Below are positions 1,519-57,482 of a stretch of DNA of 64,000 bases, piece after piece; the stretch's first letter is position 1, and each line of letters opens with the position of its first letter. Source of the stretch: Halichondria panicea (lineage: Eukaryota > Porifera > Demospongiae > Suberitida > Halichondriidae). The position numbers and the translations under genes were made by a program. The stretch covers positions 5,139,182 to 5,203,181 of the forward strand of contig NC_087384.1 in NCBI RefSeq assembly GCF_963675165.1, in the 5' to 3' direction. The notes under the pieces were generated by a model that did not search any database, was not told the origin of the DNA, and saw nothing but the letters and a program-made list of their open reading frames with translations.

Positions 1519-19008
<17,490 letters not shown>

Positions 19009-30568: not shown

Positions 30569-33500
30569 ATGTCTGAGGGTAAGATATAAAAGTTGTATAT
30601 CTTACTATGAATTAAACTAGTTACATCTTTTGCAATCCACTACAGAAAAGATTTCAGCTACACCAGATGTGCACCCAGGAGACACGTACTCCAACCAACC
30701 ACCACCTCCTCAACCTTACCTTGGCTACCCTCCATTACCAGGTGCTCCTGGAACAATTGCCTACGACCCCACAAAACAACCAATGGGAGTAGGAGCAGCA
30801 CAGTCAGGGCCAATGCCTGCAGGTTAAACTTGTAGCATACATGCTTGCATGGAGTACTGTAGAGACGCTTATAATTTTTTTAAGGGGAATAAAACAATGC
30901 ATACTCCTAGTGGACTAGAAAAATTATAACTCCATGCATGTATTAGCCTCGATTCCAGGCCGCTTGAAAAAGGCGGCCTGGTATACCTTGTATGCGCATG
31001 CGCGAAATAATTGACCATCATACAAATTGTAAAAAAACGGACAAAGTTACAAAAGGGAATAATACGTATGACAATGTGACCAAAATGACAGCTTTTTCAG
31101 AGACACTAATCAAAGTAGAATAATTATGCTGCAGCAGTGTTAGTTCTTCTAGCTCTGTTTATCAAAGAGACAGTTCAAGAAAGCCTCCCAGACAGCTAGA
31201 GCTGCCAGCTAGGAAGAGTGGTGGACTCTTTAATACATCAGTAGATTTAGTAGCAGAATACTTGCCTGGTCTATATTACCACAGCCTCATCAGGGGACCC
31301 ACAGGAACACATCATGCCTTTCCTGTAGCCTTACAGTGTAGGGTGTCGTTAAGGCTTGATGCAATAAAGGGCGTATATGAACTCAGTCATCTTTGCACAA
31401 TACTTCTATGTAACGGACTGTAAAATCAGAATACAAATAGTATACGGTTTATTTTACTGACAGTATCCACAAATACACGGATTACCCCCTTTTTGGGGTA
31501 ATGTACACGCATGCGCATACAAGGTATACCAGGCCGCCTTTTTCAAGCGGCCTGGAATCGAGGCTATGCATGTATATCCAATTACCCCTATGAATTTGAT
31601 TTGATTTTAAAATGTAAAATATGTGTTTACTGAGGTCAAATGATGGGTCTAATACCTGCTAAGTGGTTTTGCTAAGTGGTTTGTGGCCTAGATGTTTACT
31701 CCATAATCTGGTTGAGAATATTCACAATCATGACAGTAAAGTATATATAGCAACATTTTCTTCAGTGGATGTACCATCTGACTTCTGCATGTGCACTATC
31801 TCTTCACTATACAAAGACTGGTCGTCCCATAAAATATGTCCATGCACTGAATGGAAACAGAGTAGTCTAGAATTGTAACATTTGCAAGAAACACTGCAAC
31901 GAGTAGTTAACTATGTTTGGAAATGTATACATGTAGTATTGAGTTAGCAAATGTAATAACACTAGCACACACGCACACATTTAATACATTCTTTACATGC
32001 AGGTTGATGTAGATTATATATAAAGTGTGTAAACAGTATTTACAAATGGTTTTGTAGAATCTGGGATGGGTGAAAGAATTGGCTGTGGTTTCTTGAAATC
32101 TGACTTAGAGCCAAAAAGTTATTTAATGGGTCCCCCTCCCCGCCCCTTCAATATACATGCATGTTCATAGATTGAAGAGAAAGGGATTGGCACGAAAATC
32201 AAGATTATTTTTTATTCATTTCCAAATGATACCTACCATCAGGGGGCATGTGTTTTTAAGTGTTGGAGGGGTCTTTGAGAAGTAGGCATTAGACACAATA
32301 AGTTTCCCGGGTTTTCGCAGGAGTTTTAGGGCGAAACACAAATGGTTTCAGGCCCATCTGTCTACACTCTATGCAAAAGCATCACGTGAACTGCCTCCGT
32401 TGCCTGGAATCCCTTTCTCTTCAATCTATGGTTAGACCAAGTGTTGCTTGTGAAACCTATAATTAGACACTAGATTATAATTATATATACTGCAGCCCCG
32501 GTAACATGCATTGTGAAGTTCTCTTGTATACCGGCATTGTAAAAATGATATGTATAATGTCAAGCATTTTCTTATGGTTTCATGTGAATGCAGGAAATGG
32601 TGCCCCTCCCTACTACCCTAACCCCAACTCTCAGCCACCACCAGGAAATGGTGCCTCTCCCTACTATCCCAATCCCAACTCTCAGCCACCACCAGGAAAT
32701 GGTGCCCCTCCCTACTATCCCAACCCCAACTCTCAGCCACCACCAGGAAAGGGTGCCTCTCCCTATTATCCCAATCCCAACTCTCAGCCACCACCAGGAT
32801 ATGGTGCCCCTCCCTACTATCCCAATTCTCAGCCACCACCTGGAGCATGGCCACCTCAACCAGTGAGTGCATGTGTTCATCTCAATATCACATTAGGAAC
32901 TATAAAATTATGCTGTACACATCGATCAGTGTCAACCTTTTTCAACTCACTTGAAATGCAAAACATATAGGCATTGTAAATGCCAATAGTTGGGGGTGTG
33001 GTGTTGTTTGTGTGCATGTCACAGCAGAGAAGGTACGACAGGCGTACAGCGTTATTGCTGTGCCATTCAATTAGAGAAAAAACAGCCTGGACACAGCAAT
33101 AACATTGTATGTGGGCGGATAATTAGTGTTTCAATCGAAGGGTAATTGCTTGAGCTGTATACAGCGCCTATCAGCGTGATCATGCAGAGGCCGTTTTTAT
33201 ATAAAGGCCGCACTCAAATAGTAGCCTCTCTATATACAGCCCATCTTCAGTGCAATAGAAGCCGCTCTCAAATATAGTAGCCTCATCAGTGAACTTTCAC
33301 CCTATATCTGAGGCAATCATCTCTGCACTATTGATACTGCATGGTATCAATGCTGGTGTCTGTAGCAACTAGCTAGTAGATAAGACTTTCTCATGGCAAA
33401 GTTTGAGTTTGTGCAGGTGAAAAGAACTTCTAAAATTTCCTGCTATGTATAAAGTAGGGGAGCTCAAACTGTATAAGAATTGTCACCTATAGTACAATAT

Positions 33501-34650
33501 TGATGGATTTGTACTGACATTAGACAAAATACAGCCAGATGTGGGAGGGTCTGCTCTAATCTGATGATATGATAAGACAATAAAGTGCTCTCAGGAGATG
33601 AATTCCATTCACTTCTGTGACATGCACACAAACTATTAGACACCCTTGTAATGCACACTATAATTATGTAGGCTATGTATTCTGAGGCCAATTTTTCCAA
33701 GTAAAAAGTATAGGCCTGATAATTCCCATTAATTCTTTAAACATGTGCCTATTATTCTCATATAAAAGTACACTGTTATCTATACTCTAATTCTATATTG
33801 AGAAGACACATGACTAATATATAATATAAGACACAGTCATGGCTATAATATAAGACATGCGACAATAAACCTTGACATAACATGATAAGCTGCTACAAAA
33901 ATTAATGGTGCATGGTGATGCCAATCTCTTAGCAGGCTTTTAACAACAATGTGATTGCAATATTCAGTTTCATTTTTCTGAGGCTTCCTATAATTATGGT
34001 GGCCTATAGTTACACACAACTTCATATACATGTATATACATTCCAGATTGCCCAGCAACAGACCAGCAGCAATGTGGTGGTGGTCAACTCCCAACCCTCA
34101 GCGATGTCCTCCACAGTGTATGTGACCAGCAATGATCAGTCCTCCTTCATATTTGGTGTTGTGGTTTCTGTGGTGGCAGTCTTCTGTCTCTGCTGGTGGT
34201 CTCTGGTCTGCACCATCCCAGGGGCTGTGGTGGGACACATGGTGAGCTCTTTATACTATAATTGGCAGGCTTCCATGCAGTTCATTTAATTTTGCTTCAG
34301 GTTAATGAGTCTGCATGTAAAGATTCAATGTCATTAGTGTTCACGTGCATGCATGTGTACGTGGGCACATTAATCATGTGTATAACTATACAAAATTCTG
34401 GTCGCATGATTCAACGGTATACATGTTCCATTCAACTTACCCAATCTATGGCATGCAGGCTGCAGCTGCTGGCAGGAATGGAGACAAAGTAACCAAGAAG
34501 AAGTACGACCAAATCTCCGGGGTACTCATAGTGGCTGGTATCATCTTCCAAGTCATTGGCCCCATCATCATCATAGGAAGTTCTGTGGCAAGTGTGGCGA
34601 GATTGTCTAGCAGCATACCATCATCATATTACTATTATAATTCAGGCTAA
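30569..34650 (+). CDS. Array gene A: proline-rich two-membrane-segment (CD225/dispanin-like) protein
   Basis: Exons 30569-30578, 30646-30822, 32594-32862, 34047-34241 and 34459-34650 join to 843 nt, 280 residues. The N-terminal half is Pro/Gln/Tyr-rich: a PPPPQPYLGYPP segment, then four and a half repeats of a 17-residue unit (GNGAPPYYPNPNSQPPP). Exon 4 has IAQQQTSSNVVVVNSQPS and a first hydrophobic span around FGVVVSVVAVFCLCWW, followed by CTIPGAVVGHM. Exon 5 has a loop with a GD pair, then a second span, GVLIVAGIIFQVIGPIIII. The order Pro-rich cytosolic tail, Cys-rich span, GD loop, second span is that of CD225/dispanin proteins. That family call is inference; the gene model is firm. There is no signal peptide. 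The 1.8-kb intron 2 hosts a MITE. Confidence 0.82.
30944..31565. mobile_element. 622-bp MITE with 10-bp target-site duplication
   Basis: Terminal inverted repeats of about 60 bp (tagcctcgattccaggccgc at the left) are nearly perfect. The direct repeat atgcatgtat flanks both ends at 30934-30943 and 31566-31575. No coding capacity. Inserted in intron 2 of gene A. Confidence 0.9.
32166..32431. mobile_element. Small MITE, about 265 bp
   Basis: Ends catagattgaagagaaaggg and tccctttctcttcaatctatg are inverted copies. Intron 2 of gene A. Confidence 0.75.
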
Positions 34651-34920
34651 GAATAATTAGACTTGGATTGTCTGCAGTAGCAAGACCTATACATGTATAG
34701 GTGTATACTAGATATAAACACTAAGTGTAGGTGTGATAATTATGATTATTTTTATACCACTTAATTAAATCAATCATTCAAAAGTGAATGATGGTAATTG
34801 TCGCAGACTGTCCCAAAACTATGATACTATTATAATTATGCTGTATACTTTATAGTTCTATTTGAACAACTGTTTAAAACTTAATAAATTTTTGCACCGC
34901 ATAAAGTATTATATTACAGG
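34651..34920. other. Gene A 3' flank
   Basis: Presumed 3' UTR of gene A. An aataaa at about 34883 is a possible poly(A) signal. No gene seen. Confidence 0.5.
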
Positions 34921-34922
34921 TA

Positions 34923-36162
34923 CAGTGCAACAACCAAAGAGAGTAGATTTTTTTTTATATTATTTTTTTTCACATTTTGTGGCATATCTTCTGAAGTAAA
35001 AGTGATATGATCTATTTGAGTGCAGGTACTGAAAGTTCAATTATTGGCGCTTCCATTGGACCACCACCTGTTACATCATATGACATCATCACTATGAAAT
35101 GGCTGTCTGAAGATGTGTACCTCTGAAAATATGTTAGGAATAGAAGTAGCTTATTTGTTTGAGTTAAGATCTGAAATTTATTGTGTATGTACCTGACTAT
35201 ATTGCTCATCTTTTGAGCTTCAACGGAAGTCTGGGCTGCTAGTAAGTTCTGAGAAATACTGAATTTTGTTGTTTTTTGGTGGCAAATATGTTAGGAATAC
35301 AACTTTTGATTTTATGCTAGTTAAGGTCTGATTTTTGAGGAGCATGTACTACAATAGCATAGAATTCATCTGTACTAACTTACAGGAGCTAGACAAGTCT
35401 CATCTTTGCTAGAGCAGCCCTTCTTGTCAAAAATGGTGATTTTGCTCCGTTTTGCTACTTTTGCTGACGTATGCAATGATATTCATTGATTTGTGACATC
35501 ACAAATCATCTTGTTGTTATTTGCTACATCCAAAGGTCATGTGATGTCTACCTGCAAATACACAGTTGGTGTTGGTCATTCTGTGTCACAGGGCGTGGTA
35601 ATTGAGCTTACTACGTAGCCAAATTGCCCCAAAAGTCATAAAAAGCACTGTTTTTGACAAGATGGGCCGCTCTAGCAAAGAAGAGGCTAGCCTAACTCCT
35701 GTAAGTTAGTACAGATGAAAAGTACACTATTGTAGTACATGCTGCTCAAAAATCAGACCTTAACTAATATAAAATCGAAAGTTGTATTCCTAACATATTT
35801 GCCACCAAAAAACAACAAAATGCAGTATTTCTCAGAACTTACTAGTAGCCCAGACTTCCGTTGAAGCTCAAAAGATGAGCAATATACTCAGGTACATGCA
35901 CAACAAATTTCAGATCTTAACTCAAACAAATAAGCTACTTCTATTCCTAACATATTTTCGGAAGTACACATCTTCAGACAGCCATTTTATACTGATGATG
36001 TCATGTGATGTAACAGGTGGTGGTCCAATGGAAGCGCCAATAGTTGAACTTTCAGTACCTGCACTCAAATAGATCATATCACTTTTACTTTAGAAGATAT
36101 GCCACAAAATGTAAAAAATGTGTACCAAAAAAAAAAATCTACTCTCTTTGGTTGTTGCACTG
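34923..36162. mobile_element. 1.24-kb foldback element with TA target-site duplication
   Basis: Nearly the whole element is one inverted repeat: arms of about 580-600 bp meet near 35520-35560. It starts CAGTGCAACAACC and ends with the reverse, flanked by TA at 34921-34922 and 36163-36164. Mirror-image open frames of 65 codons exist in both arms, but neither resembles a known protein. The CAGTGCA start is shared with the MITE at 22362. Confidence 0.88.
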
Positions 36163-36449
36163 TACATGACATTGTAATCTATAATGAACTTTTGATGACA
36201 CTCTGAAGCATTCCCTCAACGGACCTACCTGAAAACCTCTAGATCTGATTACAGGTTGGTTCACTTCAACTTGTAATTTCTGCCAACCAACCTGAAATCC
36301 TCTGTATATTATTATAATTATTATTGCAAAGCTATATATATATGTAAATCAAGATCTCTACCACCTCACCTGTATACTTAATTAGTAGCCTCTTCATATA
36401 GTATTCAATCATGTACTATAGCTGAATATATATATAGGGTACAGTTACG

Positions 36450-36520
36450 TAGAACCTCGATTATCCGGACACCTTGGTTCCAGAGGCAGGCCGAATAACC
36501 GGTTAATCGAATAGATATAA
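36450..36520. repeat. Single end of a pogo/Tigger-like MITE
   Basis: tagaacctcgattatccgga is the terminal wording of pogo/Tigger-type non-autonomous elements and resembles the ends at 41640 and 61537. The opposite end is missing. Confidence 0.6.
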
Positions 36521-36892
36521 ACCACGCCTTGATCCACCCACTTATTAAAGCACGTAGGCTGTATATATAAAATAATTATACCAATTAACGAGTCAGTGCA
36601 TGTATACAACTTAGCTGTCTTTAAAATCAGTGAGTTGTATTCCCCGGGGCCCCCTCCCATCCCTTATTCCTACGTACAGTTGTGTACATTGCTGTGTGAG
36701 AATGATGAGTTATACATGTATATGTAGCTATACATATTTTCTCTACAAGCAATTTGACAAATTTGCAGATATTAAGCCAGATTGTTCTGCAAAATACTTC
36801 CTATACTTCCATGGGGGGTTTATTTATTATTGTGCCAACAATAATTATACTATCCCTATATACGTACACTTCATATACATGCATGTGTTACA

Positions 36893-37035
36893 GTAGTGAA
36901 TTCTCAGTCCACTGCAGTGCAGTGCCTACTACAGTACATGTGACCAAAGATTGACCTGCAAGATTCCCTATACATGTACATGGTGATGCAGTGGTCATGC
37001 TCATTCTGGTTGTCTGTGCTGTGTGCTTGGTGTGA
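36893..37035 (+). pseudogene. Decayed exon 4 of an array gene
   Basis: The stretch agtgaattctcagtccactg, continuing through tacatgtgacca and ggtcatgctcattctg, aligns with exon 4 of genes B and D-G (SQPTTVPTTVHVT, then VVTLILFF). It has deletions and frame breaks in the middle and no usable splice sites. It marks a dead array member between A and B. Confidence 0.7.
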
Positions 37036-37379
37036 GTGGAATGTAATTAGGTATAATTAAAACTGAAATAGATAAGGTAATTCAATTTTAGCACCAGCTT
37101 ACTTACTGTTGATTATACCCTCAAGTTATTGTAGAGTCTATAAAATGTCCTATTGAATGCATAACAAACCAAAATTTACTTTTGTAGTCACAGCATACAT
37201 TACACACAAAATAAGCAGCCATGACAGATCTCACCTACAGCAAAAAAACAGCCTCAGTACGAATTTTCATAATAAAGATTTTCTCAGTGTAGCTAATAGA
37301 AGTGTATTTTTATCTTGACAATCTAAGAGTGCATGACCTGCATGCTTATTGAATAAGCTGCTATGTTATATCCACCCCA

Positions 37380-37505
37380 TGCAGTGCACATTGACTATAA
37401 GCACTGGTATACTGTGGCCCCAGTGCACATTGACTATATAAGCACTGGTATATTGTGGCCCCAGTGCACATTGACTATATATAAGCACTGGTACTGTGGC
37501 CCCAG
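37380..37505. repeat. Tandem repeat, about 45-bp unit, three copies
   Basis: Three copies of cagtgcacattgactataagcactggta followed by tgtggccc, the third with an added tata. The phrase cacattgacta and the following cctacctgc..acac wording tie it to the dispersed repeat at 17906 and 21245. Confidence 0.8.
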
Positions 37506-40107: not shown

Positions 40108-40115
40108 TATAAAAA
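40108..40115 (+). promoter_or_regulatory. TATA box of array gene B
   Basis: gatataaaaagg occurs at the same place, about 150-195 bp before the ATG, in genes B, D, E, F and G. Here it is 196 bp before ATG 40304. Downstream lies a 5' UTR stretch ending gattgaacatcag, as in the other copies. Confidence 0.7.
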
Positions 40116-40303: not shown

Positions 40304-43300
40304 ATGACGAGCGAGAATGCTGAGGTGTACCCAGGCAATGCTGCCTACCCTAATCCAACAGTCCACCCTAACCAGCCACCCCCTCAAGCTAATGCTGCCT
40401 ACCCTAACCCAACAGTTGCCCCTAACTATAACCAGCCACCACCTCCTCAACCTTACCCTGGCTACCCACCAGCTGATCCTGGAATGACTGCCTACGACCC
40501 CAACAAACAACAAATGGGACCAGGAGTGCCAGCAGGTTAGTAGAAATGATATCAGTATATAATGATGCATGCATTAATAACTGCAAAAGAAAAAATTAAT
40601 GCATGCATGGATTTTTTGCAGGTGGAAATCTACCACCATACCAACCATATCCTTCTCATCAGCAACAACCAATGTATGCTCAACCACCAGTGAGTATATG
40701 AAATTGAACTCTCTTAAGATTTGCGTAAAAAAATATCGTCAAATTCCACTATAATTATAATAGCCTGGAGAGTGTTGCTATAACATGCATGAATATTGGT
40801 GTCATGTTTAACAGGTTGTCCAGCAACAAAGCAGCAGCAATGTGGTGGTAGTGAATTCTCAGCCCACTACAGTGCCTACCAGAGTACTTGTGGCGAGAAA
40901 TGATCAATCAGCTTTCATCTTTGCCATAGTGGTCACGTTCATTCTGTTCTTCTGTGGCTGCTGGTGGTCCCTTGCCTGCACGATACCTGCTATGGTGCTC
41001 GGAAGCATGGTGAGTGAAAGTGTATTCAGTATAACCAAGGGCGTATAAAAGAAGAGAGGGCATGCAACTGCACTATCACTATCAGTACCTAGCAGAGTTT
41101 AAACGTGGGCGGAGGAATGTGTGCATTTGCATGAAGTGCTAAAAATAGAAATTTCGATTTTTAGCATTTCATGCACAGTCATTCACATTCATCCGCCCGG
41201 AGTTGCATGCCCTCTCTTCTTTATACGCCCTTGGTATAACACTGAAATATCTCACTACTGAAGGAAAGCAATTTACAACTCTTTTTGCTTACTGATAGTT
41301 AGGCCACTCCAAGTGACACTCTGGTTTCTGGTCCTGATTGCATACGGGCAGGCGGCTTTTCTCATTATTTCATTATCAATTTCACCTTATGAACTCATTA
41401 TTTTGCAAATGAATATCATTATCACACTATTTTGTACTACATGGACCATTCTGCGTATGTGTAGTAGAAATAAATCCAAGAATAAAATCTGATGCGGGCG
41501 GAGGACCAGAAACCAGAGTATCACTTGGAGTGGCCTTACTAAGAGTAATCAAAAAATCATCCAATGGTAGATTTTTTTACCTTTGCCACATATTTATCCT
41601 ACAGCTTGTATATAAGAGTAGAGTATATAAGACATCGAACAGTAGAACTTCGCTAATCCGAATAGAGCCTGACCAGACCCCATCCGAATACATGAAATTT
41701 CCGAATTAACAGATGTCATTAAGTGACATTAACAAAGACACTTGTGTACATGTATTATGATATTACTGTGGCCGGAAGGGACTGCTAGCTAGAAATAGTC
41801 TTTTATCTCTCCAATACAGTAAGCTCTCTTCGTTTTCTTTGCAGTTCATTGTATTGAGCGAGGTATTGAGCATTTTATTAACAGATTTATTGCTGATTCA
41901 GCAAAGCAAGTTAGAGTGCGCATGCGTAGTAGTCTATTCTGCTGACAGCCCTCCTCTTTTTCAGTTTGCCATTTTGTCCGGATTTGTGAGGTTTCGGACT
42001 ACTGAAAGGGGTCCAGATTAGCGAGGTTCTACTGTAACAGCATTTGCCAAACTCGGTCTGTCATTCAACACTTCCCAGAAACCATACAGGTTAGAGTACA
42101 AACCACAGACCACAGCAGTTTACTCAACAACACATATTGTTCCGCCCACACTTAAATTTGCGTGGGTGTTCAATGCAGTTCAGTAAAGGCTACTCCAATT
42201 AATCTCGGTACTCTGAGAAACATAAAAATGCTAACCTTGCTAAGTACACTTACAAACAACATATATACCCATTACTGCAACGCTCCTTGGAGGGTGAGCC
42301 AGACCATGACTGATACTGTTAATTATAGGGTTAGGCCCTCTAATTAATTAGAGGAATGCAACCATGCTGGTTAAATAATAATTAGACATTAATTTTCTAA
42401 TAATTATAATTATTGCTCCCCTAATTAAGTACTTGGGGGTAAAGCCACCAGTCATAGCCTCGGCTCAGCCATGTCGTAACGACAGAGAAGATTATAGAAA
42501 TCAAGGGAGGGTTGGGTGTGGGGCTTTACTCAGATAGCTGATATAGCAAAGGCAGTGATCTCAGCACGAGGTAGTGAGCTGAGAGCACATGCTCATGCAT
42601 ATAAGATGGGCGAGGTCTTTATGTAATGATAGTAGGCAGGGCAGCATGGAGGTACATCGATTAACCTTGTTTAACTACCAATAAAGAACCGTCATGAATT
42701 CGCAGAATTTTGGCGAGGGGGAGCTGTTTAATAATATCATTTTCACCATAAAAATATATGTGTTATAACTAGTTTATATCCCGAGGGCATAGCAACATAA
42801 CACTGTTTTAGTAACACAATATAAACTGCACAAAAAGATGACAAAGACAACTCTAGACACAGCTCCATCTCTTCTCTCTTCTAGACGCCAGTATCTGCAG
42901 CGTATAAGATTGACATGACTGACGAATGGCTTGACACAAAATTGTTGGAGTCCCAACGCTGAAACCACTGTGTGTGTTTAGCAGGGAATTATGAGCCATA
43001 ATCTCATAGTTTCCCAGGGAATTATAAGCTTGAGGGTATAAAGTACAAGTATAATTTTTTGAATGCACAGAAATGAGCTGTAGCTGCATGATAATTAGCT
43101 ATGGGTATTCAGTTTTTTCACTACCAGTTTTTATAGCGTTTGCTGGATTGATGAGTAAGGTTCACCAGTATCTTTTCTTGTCTCTACGAGGAACACTAAG
43201 AGCCAGTGATTTTAACTGTTCTGGGTCCATTGTCACAAGCATGAAAGCATGTCTTCTACATGTATAGGCATTTGTCAACTTCGTCCTCCTGACTTCTGTT

Positions 43301-45758
43301 TCTATCCTGCAGCCATGTTTCAAAATTGTTACTTCAGTAGACTCCTGTGTCTTTTTGGGAACGATAGTGCACTGTAGCATTGCTGTAAGCTATTCCTTGC
43401 TAGCTAGCCCGTACAGATCAGAACAGTTCACTGAGAAGCTTGAGCTGGGGTGGGGCTTGAGTGCAGAGAAAAGAGGAGGCTGGGCTCATTTGTTGCAGAG
43501 CGCTTCCTGCACAAGGTGGAGTCACCAGTTTGTCCATCCAATGTTGAAGCAAGGCCAATGCAAAGGTTTTTTAGCAGAGAAGCAAAAATCATCTAGCTTG
43601 TCAGAACAGGACATTTTCAAAAATAAAACTGTTGCTAAGGCTTGCTGCTTTTATAGATACACTTCTTGCCTGAGGCAGCCAATGAAAAGTGCATGGGATC
43701 TAATCAGTTAGCACATGTGCATTCGGTATCTATGGTTATAGTGTCCCTCATCCATCGGGCAAAGCCCTCGTGATATGGGACACTATAACACATAGATACC
43801 TTATGCCCATGTACTATGTTATAGATAGTACATGGGCATGAGGTATCTATGTGTTATAGTGTCCCAATCACGAGGGCTTTGCCCGAGGGATGAGGGACAC
43901 TATAACCATAGATACCGAATGCACATGTGCTAACTGATTTAGATCCCACTTTTCATTGGCTGCCTCAGGCAAGAAGTGTATCTATAAAAGCAGCAAGCCT
44001 TAGCAACAGCTTTATTTTTGAAAATGTCCTGTTTTGACAAGCTAGATGATTTCTGCTTCTCTGCTAAAAAACCTTTGCATTGGCCTTGCTTCAACATTGG
44101 AATGGACAACTGGTGACTCCACCTTGTGCAGGGAGCACTCTGCAACAAATGAGCCCAGCCTCCTCTTTTCTCTGCACTCAAGCCCCACCCCCAGCTCAAG
44201 CTTCTCAGTAAACTATTCTGATATGTACGGCTAGCTAGCAAGGAACAGCTTGCAGCAATGCTACAGTGCACTATCTTTCCCAAAAAGACACAGGAGTCTA
44301 CTGTTTGAAACATGGCTGCAGGATAGAAACAGAAGTCAGGAGGAAGAAGTTGACAAATACTACAAGTTGAAGACATGCTTTCATGCTTGTGACAATGGAC
44401 CCATAATCATTGGCTCTTAGTGTTCCTCGTAAAGACAAGAAAAGATACTGGTGAACCCTACCATCAACCCAGCAAACGCTATTATAGAAACTGGTAGTGA
44501 AACTGAACAGCCATAGCTAATTATCATGCAGCTAGCTACAGCTTTATTATCATTTCTGTGCATTCAAAAAAAATATATTTGTACTTTATACCCTCAAGCT
44601 TATAATTCCCTGGGAAACTATGAGATTATGGCTCATAATTCCCTGCTAAACACACACAAGTGGGATCTAACTATAACTTATTGCACGAGCTAGTAACCAT
44701 ACTATTGATTAATCGTGTATGATGAAGTTCTCTGCAGTTTTTAATAACATTTTCAGCCGCAGCTGTTATTCGAAAATAATACATTGTCATTGGCAGCGTG
44801 CAATCACTTGACAGGTAATCACGCTGTCAATGACAACGTGCGATTACTAGACCGGATGTGATACGGGATAATTGCTGTACAATCTCCAGTCACTATCTTA
44901 CAATTATTGTAACTATCATTGTTTCATTGTTCTCTTTCATTGAATCATTGCAAACTACAAAATAATATTGTGATGTGATACTGTAACCTTAAATTGAATA
45001 TAGTGATGGCAGTAGAGTTTGGCAAATGCAATTCCACATTTACGCACTATATATACGTACCTAAGTTCAAAACTCTCTATACTTGTATCTAGTCTCATGA
45101 ATCAGCCGCACCTTTGGTGTCCGTCTGAGCATTTTTTACGTGAAATCATTTCACAATGGAATGTATTACGTCACTGTACAAGCTAAAAAAACCATAAAAA
45201 TGCAACCACATCCGCTATCTCTGCTCAGCCACATCACTGCTTGCTGCTCAACCGCATGTAAAGTTTCACTATTTGCTGCCTCCTATTCAAGTCACCTGAT
45301 GCTTGTGAGCAATCTCATTGGTCACGTTGGAAATCCATCGTGGCCCATGAGTTCACGTAAAGAGTGCTCAGACGAACACCAAAGGTGCGGCTGATTCATG
45401 AGACTAACTTGTATTTACTCTTGCTGGTAGGCATTAAACGAACCGCTTGCCTTGACAATCAACTTTGCGATCAAAGTATGCCAATATTAGAGCTAATTAT
45501 TTACATACAGTAACCTCCCCCCACCCCCCCCTCCACACACACGCGCAGGCATCCTCTGCAGGGAGTAGAGGGGACACAGATACTAAAGGCAAGTACGAAA
45601 AGATCTCTATGGCACTCACTGTGATAGCTATCGTGACTCAAGTGGTGGGATTTATCATTGTGGTTGGTGTGGCAGTAGGGATAGTCAATTCAACTAGAGC
45701 GGCGATAATTTCATCATGCTCCTCAAATCGTTTTTCGTCAAATTATTGTTTTGGCTGA
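40304..45758 (+). CDS. Array gene B: proline-rich two-membrane-segment protein
   Basis: Coding exons 40304-40535, 40622-40689, 40815-41009 and 45549-45758 join to 705 nt, 234 residues. The ATG follows the acceptor cttcaacag by two bases, so the 5' UTR is spliced. The start MTSENAEVYPGNAAYPN defines the second subtype of the array. In B the NAAYPNPTV block is duplicated. Then come QPYPGYPPADPGMTAYDP, SSSNVVVVNSQPTTVPT, and a first span with FFCGCWWSLACTIPAMVLG. The last exon has SAGSRGDTDTKGKYEKIS and a second span, VIAIVTQVVGFIIVVG. The last intron is 4.5 kb, against roughly 250-370 bp in D-G, because at least five transposons including a 1.7-kb palindrome have accumulated in it. Confidence 0.85.
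41036..41233. mobile_element. 198-bp MITE with 7-bp target-site duplication
   Basis: Ends CAAGGGCGTATAAAAGAAGA and the inverse, followed by gggcatgcaact, flanked by gtataac on both sides (41029-41035, 41234-41240). Same family as 61656-62203; degraded members are at 52739 and 54906. Confidence 0.92.
41302..41536. mobile_element. 235-bp MITE with TA duplication
   Basis: Ends ggccactccaagtgacactc and its inverse (one mismatch) continue into ggtttctggtcc. TA flanks both sides. Confidence 0.85.
41640..42034. mobile_element. 395-bp pogo/Tigger-like MITE
   Basis: Ends cagtagaacttcgctaatcc and the inverse of cagtagaacctcgctaatct. TA follows the right end. It contains the empty target site of the nested insertion seen in its sister copy at 61537. 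Confidence 0.85.
42969..44658. mobile_element. 1.69-kb near-complete palindrome inside intron of gene B
   Basis: Two arms of roughly 830-845 bp are inverted copies with a few percent mismatch, meeting at a short hairpin near 43822 (ccatgtactatgttatagat...catgg). Outer ends are ctgtgtgtgtttagcaggg and its inverse. Each arm holds an open frame of 118 to 145 codons (43355-43711 + and 43939-44376 -) with matching wording, but neither looks like a known protein. Probably a foldback transposon. Confidence 0.85.
45089..45406. mobile_element. 318-bp MITE with 8-bp target-site duplication (hAT-like)
   Basis: Inverted ends of about 50 bp (tagtctcatgaatcagccgc), flanked by acttgtat at 45081-45088 and 45407-45414. 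The 8-bp duplication suits a hAT-type source. It sits about 140 bp before the last exon of gene B. Confidence 0.9.
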
Positions 45759-47838: not shown

Positions 47839-49485
47839 ATGTCTGAAGGTACTGCACATGTATGCCAAATAATCTTACGCGTACTGTGTAACATTTCTCC
47901 TTGTAACCACAGAAAAGGCTTTGCTTCCAATGTGCTCGAACAACCAGCCACCACCTCCTCAACCTTACCCTGGCTACCCTCCGCCAGCTGCCTCTGGAAT
48001 TACTGCCTATGACCCTATGAAACAAACAGCACCGCCAGGCCTAGGGCCACCACCTGCAGGCACACTGTTTATATGATACCGTTGCCGTAGTCACTGACTA
48101 TAATGAGACTGTATAATTAGCAATGCATGTTTTTCACTGAGGGTGTGTTCGCTTGTACAATCTGGTAGACTTATATATATACATACATCCATGCATGTTC
48201 TTTATGTCAATGTGTGTTTCATACAAACACATGCAGGATACGTTGCCCCTCCCTATTATCCTGCCTCTCAGCCTCCACCACCACCTGGAGCATGGGCACC
48301 CCAACCAGTGAGTGTTGAATTTGTATCAGCTATAACAATATTATACTTATGCATGTATACAGTAGAGTCATTGCGCACTCTCATAAATTTATATAGGTAT
48401 TCAGCTGCATCAGTATTATACATGCATGGCTATGAGTGTATGCATACGGCCAATAAACAGTTTAATTGTGGTGCCTTGAAAACCATTTTTGCTACATAGA
48501 AACCACTTGCTGCATTTGTTTACTGTTTTTGATGGCTGATAATATTATGGTAATAATTGTATGGGTGCTGAGCCTGCATAGCAAACTTCCACACATGCAG
48601 GAACACCACATATATACTTCAGAGAGTGTATCCCTATATATATATATACAAGCATGCAATGATTTGACAGTAATGTTTGGGAGGAGGTGGGAATTTTTCT
48701 CCAGAGGTCAACTTTCTGTATGCTATAATTATCAAAACTCGCCACAGTGCAATAACTATAATTATTGGCACTTTGATTTCAGAGGTTAAAGGTCAAAAGG
48801 CAGCAAGACAAACTATGGCAGGCACTTCTGAATAATTATTGTCATAATTATTATACATATTTTGTTAACCTTTAATCCACTCCAGATTGCCCAGCAACAG
48901 ACTAGCAACAATGTGGTGGTGATGAACTCCCAACCCTCAGTGGTGTCATCCACAGTGCGTGTGACCAGCAATGATCAGTCCTCCTTCATATTTGGTGTTG
49001 TGGTTTCTGTGGTGGCAGTATTCTGTCTCTGCTGGTGTTCTCTGGTCTGCACCATCCCAGGGGCTGTGGTGGGACACATGGTGAGCTATATATACAATGC
49101 CGTTTACAAAGTGGTGTACACTTCCATGACTTATTAATGTGCGAAGTCATGTTATAAAAAATGATACATAATTATACATGTATAATAATTATGTATGCAT
49201 GTGGCTGTAAATTATATTATGTACAAAACTTTTTCTTGTAATTTGCCTGCCAAACAATTAGCGTGACACCAATTAATTTGATAACCTTTTCACTCCCATG
49301 TATATATACAGGCCGCAACTGCGGGCAGGAATGGAGATAAAGTAGCCAAAAGGAAGTACGATCAAATCTCTGGGGCACTCATAATTGCTGGCATTGTCTT
49401 TCAAGTCATTGGCCCCATCATCATTATAGCGAGTGTTGTTGGGCCAAGATTAAAATTTACTGCACATGGCTTACGTATAATATAG
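47839..49485 (+). CDS. Array gene C: proline-rich two-membrane-segment protein (subtype of A)
   Basis: Exons 47839-47848, 47913-48059, 48237-48307, 48886-49080 and 49312-49485 join to 597 nt, 198 residues. It starts with a ten-base exon (ATGTCTGAAG), as does gene A, and shares A's exon 4 (first span FGVVVSVVAVFCLCW, CTIPGAVVGHM) and exon 5 (AGRNGDKVAKRKYDQIS, second span ALIIAGIVFQVIGPIIIIAS). It has a single GYVAPPYYPASQPPPPPG unit where A has a repeat array. The donor after exon 2 is GC (cctgcag/gcacac), where A, B and D-G have gt; only this splice preserves the frame, so it is a poor GC donor or a damaged gene. The C-terminus differs from A after IIIIAS. Confidence 0.75.
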
Positions 49486-49991
49486 AGACTTGAATGATAT
49501 ACATATATAGCAGTCAACATGTATAGCAAGACTTTTAGGCTACATGTATATATATAGGTTTATATTGATTTTAATACTGATATACCTGCATGCATGCGTT
49601 ATTAATTGCATGATAGGTCTAGATGATTCAGATAATTGACACATGCATTCATCCTATGCTTACTATATATACATGACTGTATATGCGTGTACGGAGTACT
49701 GATTCAGAAGCTATATAAAAGGTGTCAAAGTTATCCCAAAATATTGTAAGGGATATTCATGAGCTGTATTTGAAACAAGAGAACTTATCTACTGTACGTA
49801 TATATACTGCAAGTAGCTATATTTGGTGCAAAGTTTAGGAAACACATAAGCATGAAAACATTGAACATGGTGTGTATAATTATACTCACAGTAATGATAT
49901 GATTGCATGTGCACACAACTTTTCAAGCTTTCAAGATAATTATAGCCTAATCATTTAATTTATGGTAAAGTCCCCCGCATTAACTGGCGGA

Positions 49992-49999: not shown

Positions 50000-50151
50000 G
50001 GATGAACGGAATAAATACAGTCTCAAAACTGGTTGGTTGTGAATTGAATTCGAACCAGTGAACTATCAGCAGAAAGACATAGCAGACTGAACCTCAGGTA
50101 TATATGTTAATCAATGGTTTGTCCCTGATCAATGTTGATGCTTCAACAGAC

Positions 50152-51066
50152 ATGACGAGTGAGAATGCTGAGGTGTACCCAGGCAATGCTGCCTATCCTA
50201 ATCAAACGTTCTCTCCTAACCAGCCACCACCCTCTCAACCTTACCCTGGCTACCCGCCAGCTGATCCTGGAATGACCGCCTACGACCCCACGAAACAACA
50301 AATGGGACCAGGAGTGCCAGCAGGTTAGTAACCATAACAAACTAACACACGTCAGTACTATATACCTCTACTCACCTGGCTAAAATTGCATGCACATTTC
50401 TTGAATGGAATTATTTTAGCCGACAAATTTTTGAACTGCATGCAGGTGGAAATCCACCACCATACCATCAACCAGCTGCATACCCTTCTCACCAGCAACC
50501 AATGTTCGCTCCACCTCAACCAGTGAGTTGAAAGTTAAAGAAAAAAGTGTTCACAACATTTTTGCATGAAACGTTCGTAAATTGCGCATTATAATTAGGA
50601 CATGCATAATTATTATAATAATGTCATGTTTAACAGGTTGCCCAGCAACAGAGCAGCAGCAATGTGGTGGTAGTGAATTCTCAGCCCACTACAGTGCCTA
50701 CCACAGTGCAGGTGACAAGAAATGATCAATCAGCTTTCATCTTTGCCATAGTGGTCACGCTCATCCTGTTCTTTTGTGGCTGCTGGTGGTCTTTTGCCTG
50801 CACAATACCTGCTATGGTGCTCGGTAGCATGGTGAGTGGAAGTGGTATATATGTATCCCTAGCTGATTATATTATAAGACGAAATATCTCACGATGTTGA
50901 AGGTAATTAATAAGCAAGGTAGATCTATAATATATTATATCTATACAGTGTTTTGCATGCATGCACTATAATGACAACTTAAAACGAAGCTCAACCAATT
51001 AATGATGTGTTTATAATTATACACCCTCCACACACACATACACACACACGCGTGTGCGCGCGTACA

Positions 51067-51108
<42 letters not shown>

Positions 51109-51339
51109 CACATGCAGGCATCCTCTGCAGGGAGTAGAGGGGACACTGACACTAAACGCAAGTACGAAAAGATATCTATGGCACTCACAGTGGTAGCTAT
51201 CGTGACCCAAGTGTTGGGATTTATCATTGTGGTTGGTACAGCAGTGGGGATTGTCATTTCAGGGGCTAGTGCGGCTAGATCAATCGTCACGTCATGCTCC
51301 TCGAGTCGTTTCTCGTCAAATTATTGCGGCTTTGACTGA
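50152..51339 (+). CDS. Array gene D: proline-rich two-membrane-segment protein
   Basis: Coding exons 50152-50323, 50446-50522, 50637-50831 and 51118-51339 join to 666 nt, 221 residues. Same plan as B: MTSENAEVYPGNAAYPNQ, a PPPSQPYPGYPP core, SSSNVVVVNSQPTTVPTTVQ, first span IFAIVVTLILFFCGCWW, CTIPAMVLGSM, loop SAGSRGDTDTKRKYEKIS, second span VVAIVTQVLGFIIVVGTAVG, and a short Ser/Cys/Tyr-rich tail. The acceptor of the last exon follows a (CA)n tract. A poly(A) signal aataaa is at 51480-51485. Confidence 0.87.
51046..51116. repeat. (CA)n tract before the last exon of gene D
   Basis: Alternating CA with a few TA and CG interruptions runs up to the acceptor tgcag at 51117. In E, F and G the same place has only a short caccc/caccaccc run. 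Confidence 0.88.
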
Positions 51340-51541
51340 TATGACTTACAGTTTGAACTTTGAACACTGGACAAACATTGCATGAACCATTATTATAATT
51401 ATTGGCTATAAATTGTCATTATAATAGATAGAATTTTCCCTAGTTGACAATATATTATTATTATATTGCTTAATTTTCCAATAAAGTTATTAATGAAACT
51501 ATATACACAATCAAATCAAACCATCAAAAACATACTATGAT

Positions 51542-51692
51542 TTAACAACACACATGCAGGTAAGGCTTGTCCTTGCTAGTCCGAGTGAAGTGACCAAATT
51601 ATGTGAGGTCGTAAAAATAAACTAATCGCTGTATGCGGTAGCATTTGCAAATACGATTTTCAAGGGCAAAAATTGTCGTTAGCATTTGAATT
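51542..51692 (-). pseudogene. Relic of the last AMD1 exon after gene D
   Basis: Shares with AMD1 57726-57884 the stop region (ttaac.acacac), ccgagtgaa.tgaccaaat, tgtgaggtc, gcggtagc, caagggcaa, cgttagc.tttgaattctgca, in order. Frame is broken by indels. The acceptor wording tgcag is kept. Confidence 0.8.
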
Positions 51693-51935
51693 CTGCACAA
51701 ATTACATTTGTAAGATCAAGGCATGAGTATAACTGTGACAGTGTATACAATGAATCTTACTTGAATATACATGAACAACGTGCTATTATTGCATACATGC
51801 ACACAGTATTGAATGTGCATTGTGTGCATGTGCTCACTGTATTGATATGTTTGTGCCCATCATAACTTTCAAGTTTAGGTTTAGTAATAAATATAATCAT
51901 TGCTATGGTAAAGTCTGCATCAACTCCATGGAAGA

Positions 51936-51943
51936 TATAAAAA
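51936..51943 (+). promoter_or_regulatory. TATA box of array gene E
   Basis: gatataaaaaggatgattgg, 161 bp before ATG 52097. About 20 bp downstream is the imperfect palindrome cagttttcagtctcaaaactg, also seen in F. Confidence 0.72.
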
Positions 51944-52096
51944 GGATGATTGGAATACATCAGTTTTCAGTCTCAAAACTGATTGCCAGTAAACTATATA
52001 CATAGCAGAAAGACACAGCAGAGATTGAACATCAGGTATGTTAATCATAGTTTGTCCCGATCAATGTTACGTTGATATATTATACCTTCAACAGAC

Positions 52097-53274
52097 ATGA
52101 CGAGCGAGAATGCTGAGGTGTACCCAGGCAATGCTGCCTACCCTAATCCAACATTCCCCCCAAACCAGCCACCTCCTCAACCTTACCCTGGCTATCCACC
52201 AGCTGCTCCTGGAATGAATGCCTACGACCCCACGAAACAGCCAATGGGACCAGGAGTGCCAGCAGGTTGGCTAATCAACATGCATGCATGCACGCACGCC
52301 AATACTACCTCCAAACTGCATTTATAATATTCAAATGGAAATCAGCAAAATAAATAATTTTTACTGCAGGTGCAAATCCACCACCATACCAACCATCTGC
52401 ATACCCTTCTCAACAGCAACAACCAATGTTTGCTGCACCTCAACCAGTGAGTGAATTTTAAAGAAAAAATGTTGCATGAAAATGTTCTACAGATGGCCCA
52501 GCAACAGAGCAGCAGTAATGTGGTGGTAGTGAGTTCTCAGCCCACTACAGTGCCTACCACAGTGCATGTGACAAGAAATGATCAATCAGCTTTCATCTTT
52601 GCCATTGTGGTTACGCTCATTCTGTTCTTCTGTGGCTGCTGGTGGTCTTTTGCCTGCACAATACCTGCTATGGTGCTCGGTAGCATGGTGAGTGGAAGTT
52701 ACATGCATGTATATCCCTGCATGCATGGTTAATGTAAGCAAGGGGCTTATAAAGAGAAGAGGGCAATGACGCATACATGCATGTAAATCGAGGCAGGATA
52801 ATTATACAGTATAGTGTGAAAAGTCATGCATTCCACCCACGTTGAATGTCTAAAAATAATATTACAGCTGAGTTGGCATGCATGCCCTCTTCTTTTTATA
52901 AGCCCTTGATATAAAAGACAGGAAATTAATTTTTGCAAGTATAGACTATAATTTTATCCTAGAGCTTTTATGCATGCACTAATGTTAAAACAAACCTCTA
53001 CCAAAGTGTGCATACACCCTCCACACCCACACCCACCCACGCATGCATGCAGGCATCCTCTGCAGGGAGTAGAGGGGACGCTGACACTGAAGGCAAGTAC
53101 AAAAAGATCTCTATCATACTCACAGTGGTAGCTATCGTGACTCAAGTGGTGGGATTTATCGTCGTGATTGGTACGGTAGTAGGGGTCGTCCTTTCACCTG
53201 GTGCATTCGTTTCAACATCATCACGCTGCCTCTCATATTATTCTTATTCGTCACGCTGCCGCTATTATGGCTGA
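52097..53274 (+). CDS. Array gene E: proline-rich two-membrane-segment protein
   Basis: Coding exons 52097-52265, 52370-52446, 52493-52687 and 53053-53274 join to 663 nt, 220 residues, with splice phases 1, 0, 0. N-terminus MTSENAEVYPGNAAYPNPTF, then QPYPGYPPAAPGMNAYDPTK, a Gln-rich SQQQQPMFAAPQP, first span IFAIVVTLILFFCGCWW, loop SAGSRGDADTEGKYKKIS, second span LTVVAIVTQVVGFIVVIG, and a Ser/Tyr/Arg-rich tail. The 5' UTR exon ends aacatcag/gtatgt and a 60-bp intron precedes the ATG. Poly(A) signal aataaa at 53652-53657. Nearly identical to F over 2.1 kb. Confidence 0.88.
52739..52908. mobile_element. Degraded CAAGGGC-family MITE in the last intron of gene E
   Basis: caaggggcttataaagagaagagggca at the left and the inverse at the right; duplicated with the gene at 54906-55074, and a remnant is in gene G near 57130. 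The insertion therefore predates the E/F/G duplications. Confidence 0.75.
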
Positions 53275-53711
53275 TCTGACTCAGTTAAAACACTGGACAA
53301 ATTAACATTGTAGATATCGATCAAGATGTATTATAGCTACATTTTATATACTAACTATATAGTATAGATATACGTTTTCAGTTTCATGCATGCACGCAGT
53401 TCATGAGTATATTATACAGTTGAAAGTTGACAAAAAATTTATCATTTTAAATTGTTTGCTGCTCAATTATTTTTCCACATAAGGTAATACTGAGCAGGTA
53501 TCAACTTTTGAATATTATGTATTAGTTAGAGCCTAGCCAGAGTGCAACTAGCCTCGATCCCAGGCCGAGTTTTCGCTTTTATAACGGTTAGGCGAACAAC
53601 CATAATTATATTGACAATATAAATTATTATGATTATATTGCTTAATTTTCCAATAAAGATTTAATGAAACTATATTATACACAATCAAATCAAATCATAA
53701 AAAACTATGAT

Positions 53712-53858
53712 TTAACGACACACAGTGTAAGGCTTGACTTGCTAGTCCGAGTGAAGTGACCAAATTATGTGAGGTCATAAGAATTAACTAATCGCTGTAT
53801 GCGGTAGCATTTGCAAATATGATTTTCAAGGGCAAAAATGTTCGTTAGCGTTTGAATT
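53712..53858 (-). pseudogene. Relic of the last AMD1 exon after gene E
   Basis: Same decayed block as after D and F, matching AMD1 57726-57884 from the stop region to the acceptor. Frame broken. Confidence 0.8.
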
Positions 53859-54100
53859 CTGCACAATTACATTTGTAAGGTCAAGGCATGAATATAACTG
53901 TGACAGTGTATACAATGAATCTTACTTGAATATACATGAACAACGTGCTATTATTGCATACATGCACACAGTATTGAATGTGCATTGTGTGCATGTGCTC
54001 ACTGTATTGATATGTTTGTGCCCATCATAACTTTCAAGTTTAGATTTAGTAATAAATATAATCATTGCTATGGTAAAGTCTGCATCAACTCCATGGCAGA

Positions 54101-54108
54101 TATAAAAA
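54101..54108 (+). promoter_or_regulatory. TATA box of array gene F
   Basis: gatataaaaaggatgattgg, 161 bp before ATG 54262, promoter nearly identical to E. The frameshifted copy therefore keeps an apparently intact promoter. Confidence 0.7.
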
Positions 54109-54261
54109 GGATGATTGGAATACATCAGTTTTCAGTCTCAAAACTGATTGCCAGTAAACTATATACATAGCAGAAAGACACAGCAGAGATTGAACATCAG
54201 ATATGTTAATCATAGTTTGTCCCGATCAATGTTACGTTGATATATTATACCTTCAACAGAC

Positions 54262-55440
54262 ATGACGAGCGAGAATGCTGAGGTGTACCCAGGCAATGCT
54301 GCCTACCCTAATCCAACATTCCCCCCAAACCAGCCACCTCCTCAACCTTACCCTGGCTATCCACCAGCTGCTCCTGGAATGAATGCCTACGACCCCACGA
54401 AACAGCCAATGGGACCAGGAGTGCCAGCAGGTTGGCTAATCAACATGCATGCATGCACGCACGCCAATACTACCTCCAAACTGCATTTATAATATTCAAA
54501 TAGAAATCAGCAAAATAAATAATTTTTACTGCAGGTGCAAATCCACCACCATACCAACCATCTGCATACCTAATTCTCAACAGCAACAACCAATGTTTGC
54601 TGCACCTCAACCAGTGAGTGAATTTTAAAGAAAAAATGTTGCATGAAAATGTTCTACAGATGGCCCAGCAACAGAGCAGCAGTAATGTGGTGGTAGTGAG
54701 TTCTCAGCCCACTACAGTGCCTACCACAGTGCATGTGACAAGAAATGATCAATCAGCTTTCATCTTTGCCATTGTGGTTACGCTCATTCTGTTCTTCTGT
54801 GGCTGCTGGTGGTCTTTTGCCTGCACAATACCTGCTATGGTGCTCGGTAGCATGGTGAGTGGAAGTTACATGCATGTATATCCCTGCATGCATGGTTAAT
54901 GTAAGCAAGGGCTTATAAAGAGAAGAGGGCAATGACGCATACATGCATGTAAATCGAGGCAGGATAATTATACAGTATAGTGTGAAAAGTCATGCATTCC
55001 ACCCACGTTGAATGTCTAAAAATAATATTACAGCTGAGTTGGCATGCATGCCCTCTTCTTTTTATAAGCCCTTGATATAAAAGACAGGAAATTAATTTTT
55101 GCAAGTATAGACTATAATTTTATCCTAGAGCTTTTATGCATGCACTAATGTTAAAACAAACCTCTACCAAAGTGTGCATACACCCTCCACACCCACACCC
55201 ACCCACGCATGCATGCAGGCATCCTCTGCAGGGAGTAGAGGGGACGCTGACACTGAAGGCAAGTACAAAAAGATCTCTATCATACTCACAGTGGTAGCTA
55301 TCGTGACTCAAGTGGTGGGATTTATCATCGTGATTGGTACGGTAGTAGGGGTCATCCTTTCACCTGGTGCATTCGTTTCAACATCATCACGCTGCCTCTC
55401 ATATTATTCTTATTCGTCACGCTGCCGCTATTATGGCTGA
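54262..55440 (+). pseudogene. Array gene F: near-identical copy of E with a 2-bp frameshift
   Basis: Exon blocks 54262-54430, 54535-54613, 54660-54854 and 55219-55440 correspond one to one with gene E. In the second block, gene E has gcatacccttctc and F has gcatacctaattctc, a net gain of two bases. The block is 79 rather than 77 bp, so the frame is lost before both membrane segments; reading on gives a stop at the exon end or just inside exon 4. All splice sites, promoter and poly(A) signal (55804-55809) remain. At most a short secreted or cytosolic Pro-rich peptide of about 80 residues could be made. Could be a sequence error, though the change is not in a homopolymer. Confidence 0.8.
54906..55074. 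mobile_element. Degraded CAAGGGC-family MITE in the last intron of gene F
   Basis: Counterpart of 52739-52908, carried along by the duplication. Confidence 0.75.
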
Positions 55441-55864
55441 TCTGACTCAGTTAAAACACTGGACAAATGAACATTGTAGATATCGATCAAGATGTATTAT
55501 AGCTACATTTTACTAACTATATAGTATAGATATACGTTTTTTCAGTTTCATGCATGCACGCAGTTCATGAGTATATTATACAGTTGAAAGTTGACAAAAA
55601 ATTTATCATTTTAAATTGTTTGCTGCTCAATTATTTTTCCACATAAGGTAATACTGAGCAGGTATCAACTTTTGAATATTATGTATTAGTTAGAGCCTAG
55701 CAACTAGCCTCGATCCCAGGCCGAGTTTTCGCTTTTATAACGGTTAGGCGAACAACCATATATTGACAATATAAATTATTATGATTATATTGCTTAATTT
55801 TCCAATAAAGTTATTAATGAAACTATATTATACACAATCAAATCAAATCATAAAAAACTATGAT

Positions 55865-56016
55865 TTAACAACACACACACAGTGTAAGGCTTGTCCTTGC
55901 TAGTCCGAGTGAAGTGACCAAATTATGTGAGGTCATAAGAATTAACTAATTGCTGTATGCGGTAGCATTTGCAAATATGATTTTCAAGGGCAAAAATGTT
56001 CGTTAGCGTTTGAATT
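55865..56016 (-). pseudogene. Relic of the last AMD1 exon after gene F
   Basis: Third clear relic; cgttagcgtttgaattctgca is identical to the acceptor end of the true exon. Confidence 0.82.
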
Positions 56017-56252
56017 CTGCACAATTACATTTGTAAGGTCAAGGCATGAATATAACTGTGACAGTGTATACAATGAATATATTACTTGAATGTACATGAA
56101 CAACGTGCTATTATTGCATACCATGCATGCATGCACACAGTATTGAATGTGCATTAATTGTGTGCCATGTACTCACTGTATTGATATGTTTGTGCCCACA
56201 ATTTTCAATACATAATCATTGCTATGGTTAAGTGTCTGCATCAACTGGCAGA

Positions 56253-56260
56253 TATAAAAA
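56253..56260 (+). promoter_or_regulatory. TATA box of array gene G
   Basis: gatataaaaaggatgaacgc, 159 bp before ATG 56412, then cagttttcagtatcaaaactgg and the 5' UTR ending aacatcag/gtatgt. Confidence 0.72.
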
Positions 56261-56411
56261 GGATGAACGCAGTTTTCAGTATCAAAACTGGTTGTCAGAT
56301 TAGTAAACTATACATAATAGCAGAAAGACACAGCAGAGATTGAACATCAGGTATGTTAATCATAGTTTGTCCCGATCAATGTTACGTTGATATATTATAC
56401 CTTCAACAGAC

Positions 56412-57482
56412 ATGACGAGCGAGAATGCTGAGGTGTACCCAGGCAATGCTGCCTACCCTAATCCAACATTTCCCCCAAACCAGCCACCCCAACCCGCTTA
56501 CCCTGGCTACCCACCAACTGCCCCTGGAATGACTGCCTACGACCCCACGAAACAGCCAATGGGACCAGGAGTACCTGCAGGTTGGCTAATCAACATGCAT
56601 GCATGCACGTCAGTACTATACCTCCACTCACCTGGCAAACTGCATTTTAAAAAATTGTAATCAGCAAAATAAATATTTTTTACTGCAGGTGCAAATCCAC
56701 CACCATACCAACCACCTGCATACCCTTCTCAACAGCAACAACCAATGTTTGCTGCACCTCAACCAGTGAGTGAATTTTATAAAAAGTTACATTGAAATGG
56801 CATGCTAATCCTATACAGATGGCCCAGCAACAAAGCAGCAACAATGTGGTGGTAGTGAGTTCTCAGCCCACTACAGTGCCTACCACAGTGCATGTGACAA
56901 GAAATGATCAATCAGCTTTCATCTTTGCCATTGTGGTCACGCTTATCTTGTTCTTCTGTGGCTGCTGGTGGTCCTTTGCCTGCACAATACCTGCTATGGT
57001 GCTCGGCAGCATGGTGAGTGGAAGTTACATGCATGTATATCCCTGATCAATCATAAGCAGAGTGTGAAAAAGTTATCATTCCCACCCATGTCTAAAAATA
57101 ATAGGATGAAGTTTGAGATAGCCTGAGCTTGCATGCCCTCATAAAGCCCTTGATATACTATTTATCCTAGAGATTTTATGCATGCACTAATGTTAAAACG
57201 AACCTCTACCAAAGTGTGCATGCACCCTCCACACCCACACCCACCCACGCATGCATGCAGGCATCCTCTGCAGGGAGTAGAGGGGACGCTGATACTGAAG
57301 GCAAGTACAAAAAGATCTCTATCATACTCACAGTGGTAGCTATCGTGACTCAAGTGGTGGGATTTATTATTGTGGTTGGTACGGTAGTAGGGGTCGTCAC
57401 TTCAGGTGCTCGTGCAATTGTTTCAACAACATCACGCTGCACCTCATTTTCTTATTCGTCAAGCTGCTTCTATGGTGGCTGA
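56412..57482 (+). CDS. Array gene G: proline-rich two-membrane-segment protein
   Basis: Coding exons 56412-56580, 56689-56765, 56819-57013 and 57261-57482 join to 663 nt, 220 residues. It differs from E mainly in the Pro-rich part (NQPPQPAYPGYPPTAPGM) and in the tail after the second span (SGARAIVSTTSRCTSFSYSS), while the membrane segments and loop are almost unchanged. This is the last member, convergent with AMD1, whose stop lies 243 bp beyond the stop of G. Confidence 0.88.

Follow-up and report, generated by a model that had tools for sequence, protein, structure and literature searches.

Seven tandem genes for proline-rich membrane proteins in the sponge Halichondria panicea and their probable kinship with the dispanin/CD225 superfamily

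What kind of protein is encoded by seven similar genes that lie head to tail in the genome of Halichondria panicea, at positions 30569-57482 of a 64,000-nucleotide stretch (C8:5139182-5203181, hereafter the window), and do these proline-rich membrane proteins belong with the dispanin/CD225 superfamily (PF04505: IFITM, PRRT2, TUSC5, SynDIG/TMEM90, TMEM91)? Comparison of the window with the genome (131 Mb, 39 contigs) makes homology to dispanin/CD225 very probable, and slightly favors the fuller interpretation in which a divergent branch of that superfamily, encoding membrane adaptors, has expanded in tandem within one lineage. The genome has three zf-C4 and at least 213 SRCR matches, counts that suit a demosponge. 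Because the copies do not reach the Pfam cut-off for CD225, they are, as judged from their sequences, a divergent branch of the superfamily and are not filed here as CD225 members.

Motif scans and repeat analysis gave the positions of the copies, whose exon models were built by hand. This confirmed the seven-copy array of two subtypes proposed in a sequence-only reading of this DNA, with two copies of subtype A and five of subtype B. One exon plan is common to all copies, and the bounds of the array are the start codon of A1 and the stop codon of B5. Each copy has a 65-codon exon (the TM1 exon, for the first transmembrane segment) carrying the motif C-x-C-x5-C, followed by an in-frame acceptor, a GD and a second hydrophobic segment (in the TM2 exon). 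Introns are in phase 1 after the proline-rich exon and in phase 0 on both sides of the TM1 exon, except in B4, which has lost its frame, and they are GT-AG throughout with the sole exception of one GC donor in A2; subtype A has an additional short first coding exon. The layout described earlier (P/Q/Y-rich N-terminus, Cys-containing first segment, GD loop, second segment) was recovered in all seven copies as regards the two segments and the GD, and by composition and hydropathy in six models (all but B4): the P/Q/Y/G/N fraction up to the first QQQ is 0.58-0.69 in the six unshifted frames, and hydropathy peaks above 1.6 coincide with the two membrane segments in 6/6 models. Thus, as far as hydropathy indicates, the proteins are predicted to have two membrane segments with the GD loop between them, and no differing topology emerged. 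Also found in 7/7 copies are a double Cys in helix 1 (C-G-C or C-L-C, within C-x-C-W-[WC]-S, with a third Cys five residues further), an N-D-Q with its flanking Asp ahead of helix 1, and the loop GD; PPxY is present in 5/6 models.

Searches of the genome with two B2 exons, TM1 and TM2, identified eight relatives outside the window, seven on contig C7 (5.68-5.73 Mb) and one on C17 (5.105 Mb), counts from such exon searches being lower bounds. The B2 TM1 exon matched the other array copies beyond chance (E 4.6e-36 to 2.1e-20), and the window TM1 exon matched the relatives with E values of 5.9e-13 to 1.6e-3. The relatives resemble the window copies in a QQ..NVVV-like lead-in (most of them), a C-W-W or similar motif, a Ser/Tyr/Cys tail (several) and an identical exon junction (7/8). 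In other respects they are nearer to CD225 than the window copies are, with GDxEG in 2/8, GNxEG in 2/8 and [AV]-x6-[SA] in 7/8, and their loop residues are GD (3), GN (2), GE (1), GQ (1) or none (1). In a 14-row tree, which gave long-branch warnings at its deeper forks, the six window rows (all copies but B4) form a group of their own, set apart from the relatives by a branch with support of 99/97.

Pfam CD225 has 37 exon matches above the cut-off in the genome, none of them in the window. CD225 did appear for all six of the eight relatives that were scanned (E 8.8e-4 to 2.6; 8.7-19.8 bits, all below the cut-off of 27.1 bits), and it was the top Pfam match, still below the cut-off, in three of the six (E 8.8e-4, 4.6e-3 and 4.2e-3). 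On five window proteins, TatC, DUF4190 and other membrane families gave only weak matches below the cut-off and were rejected. NCBIfam gave nothing above its cut-off for two window proteins, and a sequence search of the PDB with B2 gave no match at E<=1.

The same genome contains about ten CD225 genes arrayed at C17:660000-686000, which share the loop intron, and more CD225 exon matches are found on C14, on C6 and elsewhere on C17. Like the window array, the C17 CD225 genes (662-682 kb) are in tandem, place the same exon junction relative to GD and have proline-containing N-termini. Unlike the window copies, they have the A-x6-A spacing and P-[LI]-G-x-x-A in helix 1, and the one member scanned, which served as positive control, scored 87.2 bits for CD225. 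Arg occupies the second codon after the junction in most of the C17 CD225 genes but in none of the window copies, a position that we take to be equivalent to R85 of IFITM3. Excerpts of PMC11730294 describe an R-SNARE-like motif with a central Arg in IFITM restriction factors, and the absence of this Arg from a subset of human CD225 proteins.

Profile comparison links the family as a whole to CD225. The 14-row family profile aligned with a broad CD225 profile over 66 columns with a score of 53.8 (P 2.2e-10), placing GD on GD with no gap from the junction to GD; none of 450 column shuffles reached this score (maximum 36.2), including 300 local shuffles, which roughly preserve the hydropathy pattern. 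The reversed profile scored 15.2, and a control profile of TM2 hairpins (three rows, from 3/4 TM2 loci) scored 10.7; the fourth TM2 locus and all nine LITAF loci, lacking a usable reading in the frame taken, were dropped as controls. The family scored 49.4 with a set of ten CD225 rows of which nine lie outside the C17:662-682 kb array. The window rows alone scored 31.5 with the broad profile, which was reached by none of 600 shuffles (400 local). On these scores, the CD225 link is strong for the whole family, and the window copies by themselves support it weakly.

The position of the loop intron points in the same direction. An in-frame AG lies nine codons before the end of GD (once GE) in 17/17 second-half CD225 exons, which are all such exons among the genome matches, and in 7/7 window exons; in B2, for example, the nine codons that begin at the acceptor and end with the D of GD occupy 51118-51144 on the forward strand, and the offset is the same in all seven copies. 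The window donors before this acceptor are in phase 0, and in-frame CD225 donors were observed behind helix 1 in the C17 array, where donors were examined. The exon starts at this nine-codon offset from the end of G-D/N/E/Q in 7/8 relatives, and the motif is missing from the eighth. The dispanin family, too, is reported to have a conserved splice site between the membrane segments, in the loop (excerpts of PMC3282796). That the same codon and frame would arise by chance in an alignment anchored on GD appears unlikely, a judgement and not a computed probability. Thus, of the CD225/dispanin kinship proposed in the sequence-only reading, the direct Pfam match failed, but sub-cut-off matches of the relatives, profile comparison and intron position support a distant relationship.

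The gene models, all on the forward strand, differ in quality: five of the copies (A1, B1, B2, B3 and B5) are intact, with open frames and canonical splice sites, which is not so for B4 and doubtful for A2. Copy A1 (30569-34650; exons 30569-30578, 30646-30822, 32594-32862, 34047-34241 with TM1, and 34459-34650 with the GD loop, TM2 and tail; 280 amino acids) has only GT-AG introns and an intact frame, and owes its long N-terminus to a 51-bp tandem repeat of Pro/Tyr/Asn-rich units in exon 3, placed by repeat analysis at 32591-32845. Copy B1 (40304-45758; exons 40304-40535, 40622-40689, 40815-41009 with TM1, and 45549-45758 with TM2; 234 amino acids) has a last intron of 4.5 kb that contains inverted repeats. 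Copy A2 (47839-49485; exons 47839-47848, 47913-48059, 48237-48307, 48886-49080 with TM1, and 49312-49485 with TM2) may be decaying, as suggested by its different C-terminus and by the GC donor at 48060, after the second coding exon, without which the frame does not stay open. Copies B2 (50152-51339; exons 50152-50323, 50446-50522, 50637-50831 with TM1, and 51118-51339 with TM2; 221 amino acids), B3 (52097-53274; exons 52097-52265, 52370-52446, 52493-52687 with TM1, and 53053-53274 with TM2; 220 amino acids) and B5 (56412-57482; exons 56412-56580, 56689-56765, 56819-57013 with TM1, and 57261-57482 with TM2; 220 amino acids) have open frames. Copy B4 (54262-55440; exons 54262-54430, 54535-54613, 54660-54854 and 55219-55440) is a close duplicate of B3 that has lost its frame because its second coding exon is 2 nucleotides longer than that of B3. 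B3 and B4 lie in tandem units (51700-56078, forward strand, by repeat analysis) spaced about 2.16 kb apart; six ungapped blocks of the pair (D1, D3, D4, D9, D10 and D13) show 95-100% identity, and a seventh (D8), also compared ungapped, shows 66%. The TATA-like string ATATAAAAAGGATGA, found upstream of B3 (51935-51949, forward strand) by an exact string search that carries no chance estimate, is present before four B copies (also at 49991 for B2, 54100 for B4 and 56252 for B5), with a shorter match at 40108 for B1.

Several repeats and other genes were observed in the window. Between A1 and B1, an inverted repeat (34966-36118) with arms of 489 nucleotides, 92% complementary and 175 nucleotides apart, is perhaps a transposable element, and the last intron of B1 contains nested inverted repeats (42969-44658; 245-nucleotide arms 96% complementary, 92-nucleotide arms 98% complementary). 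A sulfotransferase reading frame (26082-26840; Pfam Sulfotransfer_1, E 1.9e-60) precedes the array; Pfam matches were obtained for 3/10 other reading frames of the window, namely SNF2, Helicase_C and a sulfotransferase. A tandem repeat near a helicase exon (9457-9837), open in frame on both strands, is perhaps an intronic minisatellite.

The copies have not changed evenly along their length. The N-terminus is as variable as the sequence-only reading had it, with 76 (A2) to 152 (A1) codons ahead of the TM1 exon according to exon coordinates, but the near constancy claimed for the membrane parts applies to the TM1 exon (86-98% identity among B1, B2, B3 and B5) and not to the TM2 exon, which is just 40-46% identical between subtypes and whose tail is the fastest-changing part of the protein. 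Ratios of nonsynonymous to synonymous substitution (dN/dS) among the six pairs of intact B copies, uncorrected for multiple pairs, alignment error or gene conversion, are 0.03-0.30 in the TM1 exon, 0.14-0.68 in the N-terminus, 0.20-0.99 in the loop and TM2, and 0.33-6.67 in the tail; a comparison of the N-terminal and membrane parts had been proposed. In 6/6 of these pairs dN is minimal in the TM1 exon and maximal in the C-terminal tail. The highest tail ratio is that of B3 and B5 (15 nonsynonymous versus 1 synonymous changes); the other five pairs have tail ratios of 0.33-1.09, and the tail alignment is poor. Strong positive selection on the tail is not claimed here, as the case for it rests on this one pair and a gapped alignment.

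Several results weigh against placing the array with the dispanins. None of the five spliced window proteins tested, of the seven copies, matched Pfam CD225 at E<=10, although weak matches can be lost to the filters of HMMER. Excerpts of PMC3282796 list as dispanin features GD, a double Cys (C-C or C-F-C), a D before helix 1, A-X(6)-A, the loop splice site and a C-terminus of fewer than 10 residues. The window copies share with the superfamily the long N-terminus, the two membrane segments, the Cys motif in the first segment, the preceding D, the loop GD and a splice site in the loop, whose codon position matches that in the CD225 genes of this genome. They differ from it in their particular Cys motif with its third Cys and in lacking A-x6-A (K or E, six residues and S stand in register) and the second Gly of the GxxxG that would start at GD (7/7 copies have GDTDT, GDADT, GDKVT or GDKVA), and 13-34 residues follow the last hydropathy peak in six models, a longer tail than reported. 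With a narrow CD225 profile built from nine C17-array proteins, the family score of 36.8 (P 2.1e-6) is marginal, the best of 450 shuffles having reached 36.5, and the score of the window rows alone (15.1, P 0.048) is not significant; the best shuffle against their broad-profile score was 30.6, a margin of less than 1 unit. The family/CD225 alignment requires three gap positions in helix 1, and further in-frame AGs occur nearby in 8/17 CD225 exons, though in none of the window copies. The missing Pfam matches and motifs and the marginal narrow-profile score would all fit an unrelated proline-rich two-segment family that came to resemble dispanins by convergence on a hydrophobic hairpin, Cys residues and a loop GD, as would the occurrence, in the same scans, of other weak membrane families with E values near that of CD225 (for example PorA, 0.0075, versus CD225, 0.0046). 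Such convergence is nevertheless improbable, given broad-profile scores that no shuffle attained, the low score of the unrelated hairpin, and the identical codon and frame of the intron.

That the array is a decaying cluster of tandem duplicates under relaxed constraint and with little function is unlikely: the B4 frameshift, the GC donor and altered tail of A2, the upper ratios in the loop, TM2 and tail, and a TM1-exon dN/dS of 0.68 between A1 and A2, which departs from the B pattern and counts against a maintained family of adaptors, all suggest decay, but the low TM1-exon ratios of the intact B pairs, the five sound gene models and the common TATA-like string argue otherwise. It is more doubtful still that the proteins are IFITM-like restriction factors acting on viruses or bacteria at membranes, their fast tail reflecting conflict with pathogens or symbionts. 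The distant homology, the tandem expansion and the B3/B5 tail are consistent with this, and a CD225/dispanin gene is apparently among those higher in symbiotic Hydra (a table fragment in PMC6019070); however, mutating the second Gly of GxxxG lowers IFITM3 oligomerisation and restriction (excerpts of PMC7665892), and this Gly is absent from all window copies, while the tail ratios of the other B pairs and the poor tail alignment offer little sign of conflict. Since A-x6-A and this Gly are missing, IFITM-like antiviral action does not follow from the kinship, and an IFITM-type mechanism is somewhat doubtful; the role against pathogens or in fusion suggested earlier thus found no support of its own. 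A sponge dispanin branch that escapes standard detection and has a fixed membrane core with a rapidly diversifying, outward-facing Ser/Tyr/Cys tail, in a paralogue set that meets microbes or symbionts at the membrane, is the most speculative of these proposals and would be surprising.

For the favored expansion of a divergent dispanin/CD225 branch, a working mode as non-enzymatic membrane adaptors is proposed tentatively. Seated in the membrane, the proteins would begin with a long and disordered N-terminus rich in P/Q/Y, assumed to be cytosolic as is that of IFITM3. A first membrane segment would follow, whose three or more Cys are predicted to be S-palmitoylated, and then the GD loop, the second segment and a short tail. 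PPxY motifs bind WW domains, and the N-terminus may recruit trafficking proteins through them, while the palmitoylated anchor would set the location at endosomal or surface membranes; the chief differences among the paralogues would be the length of the N-terminus and the fast-changing tail. Palmitoylation of IFITM3 Cys is described in excerpts of PMC13194588, and the location, palmitoylation, PPxY adaptor binding and role in membrane traffic suggested here are extrapolated from dispanins generally (excerpts of PMC11730294 and PMC13194588). The dispanin topology given in excerpts of PMC3282796, with both termini outside the cell, conflicts with the assumed cytosolic N-terminus.

No description of such an array was found among the best-ranked open-access papers on CD225/dispanin and sponges, the nearest case being Oscarella carmela, a sponge for which a possible Dispanin C1 is named (excerpts of PMC7653359). 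When this genome is scanned exon by exon with Pfam CD225, a whole branch of at least 15 gene copies, seven in the array and eight elsewhere, is overlooked. The shared loop intron is a marker, partly independent of sequence, by which divergent dispanins may be found. The branch also helps to ask which dispanin features are old, candidates being the Cys anchor, the GD and the splice site, and which, like A-x6-A, GxxxG and the SNARE-like Arg, are not common to all branches of the superfamily.

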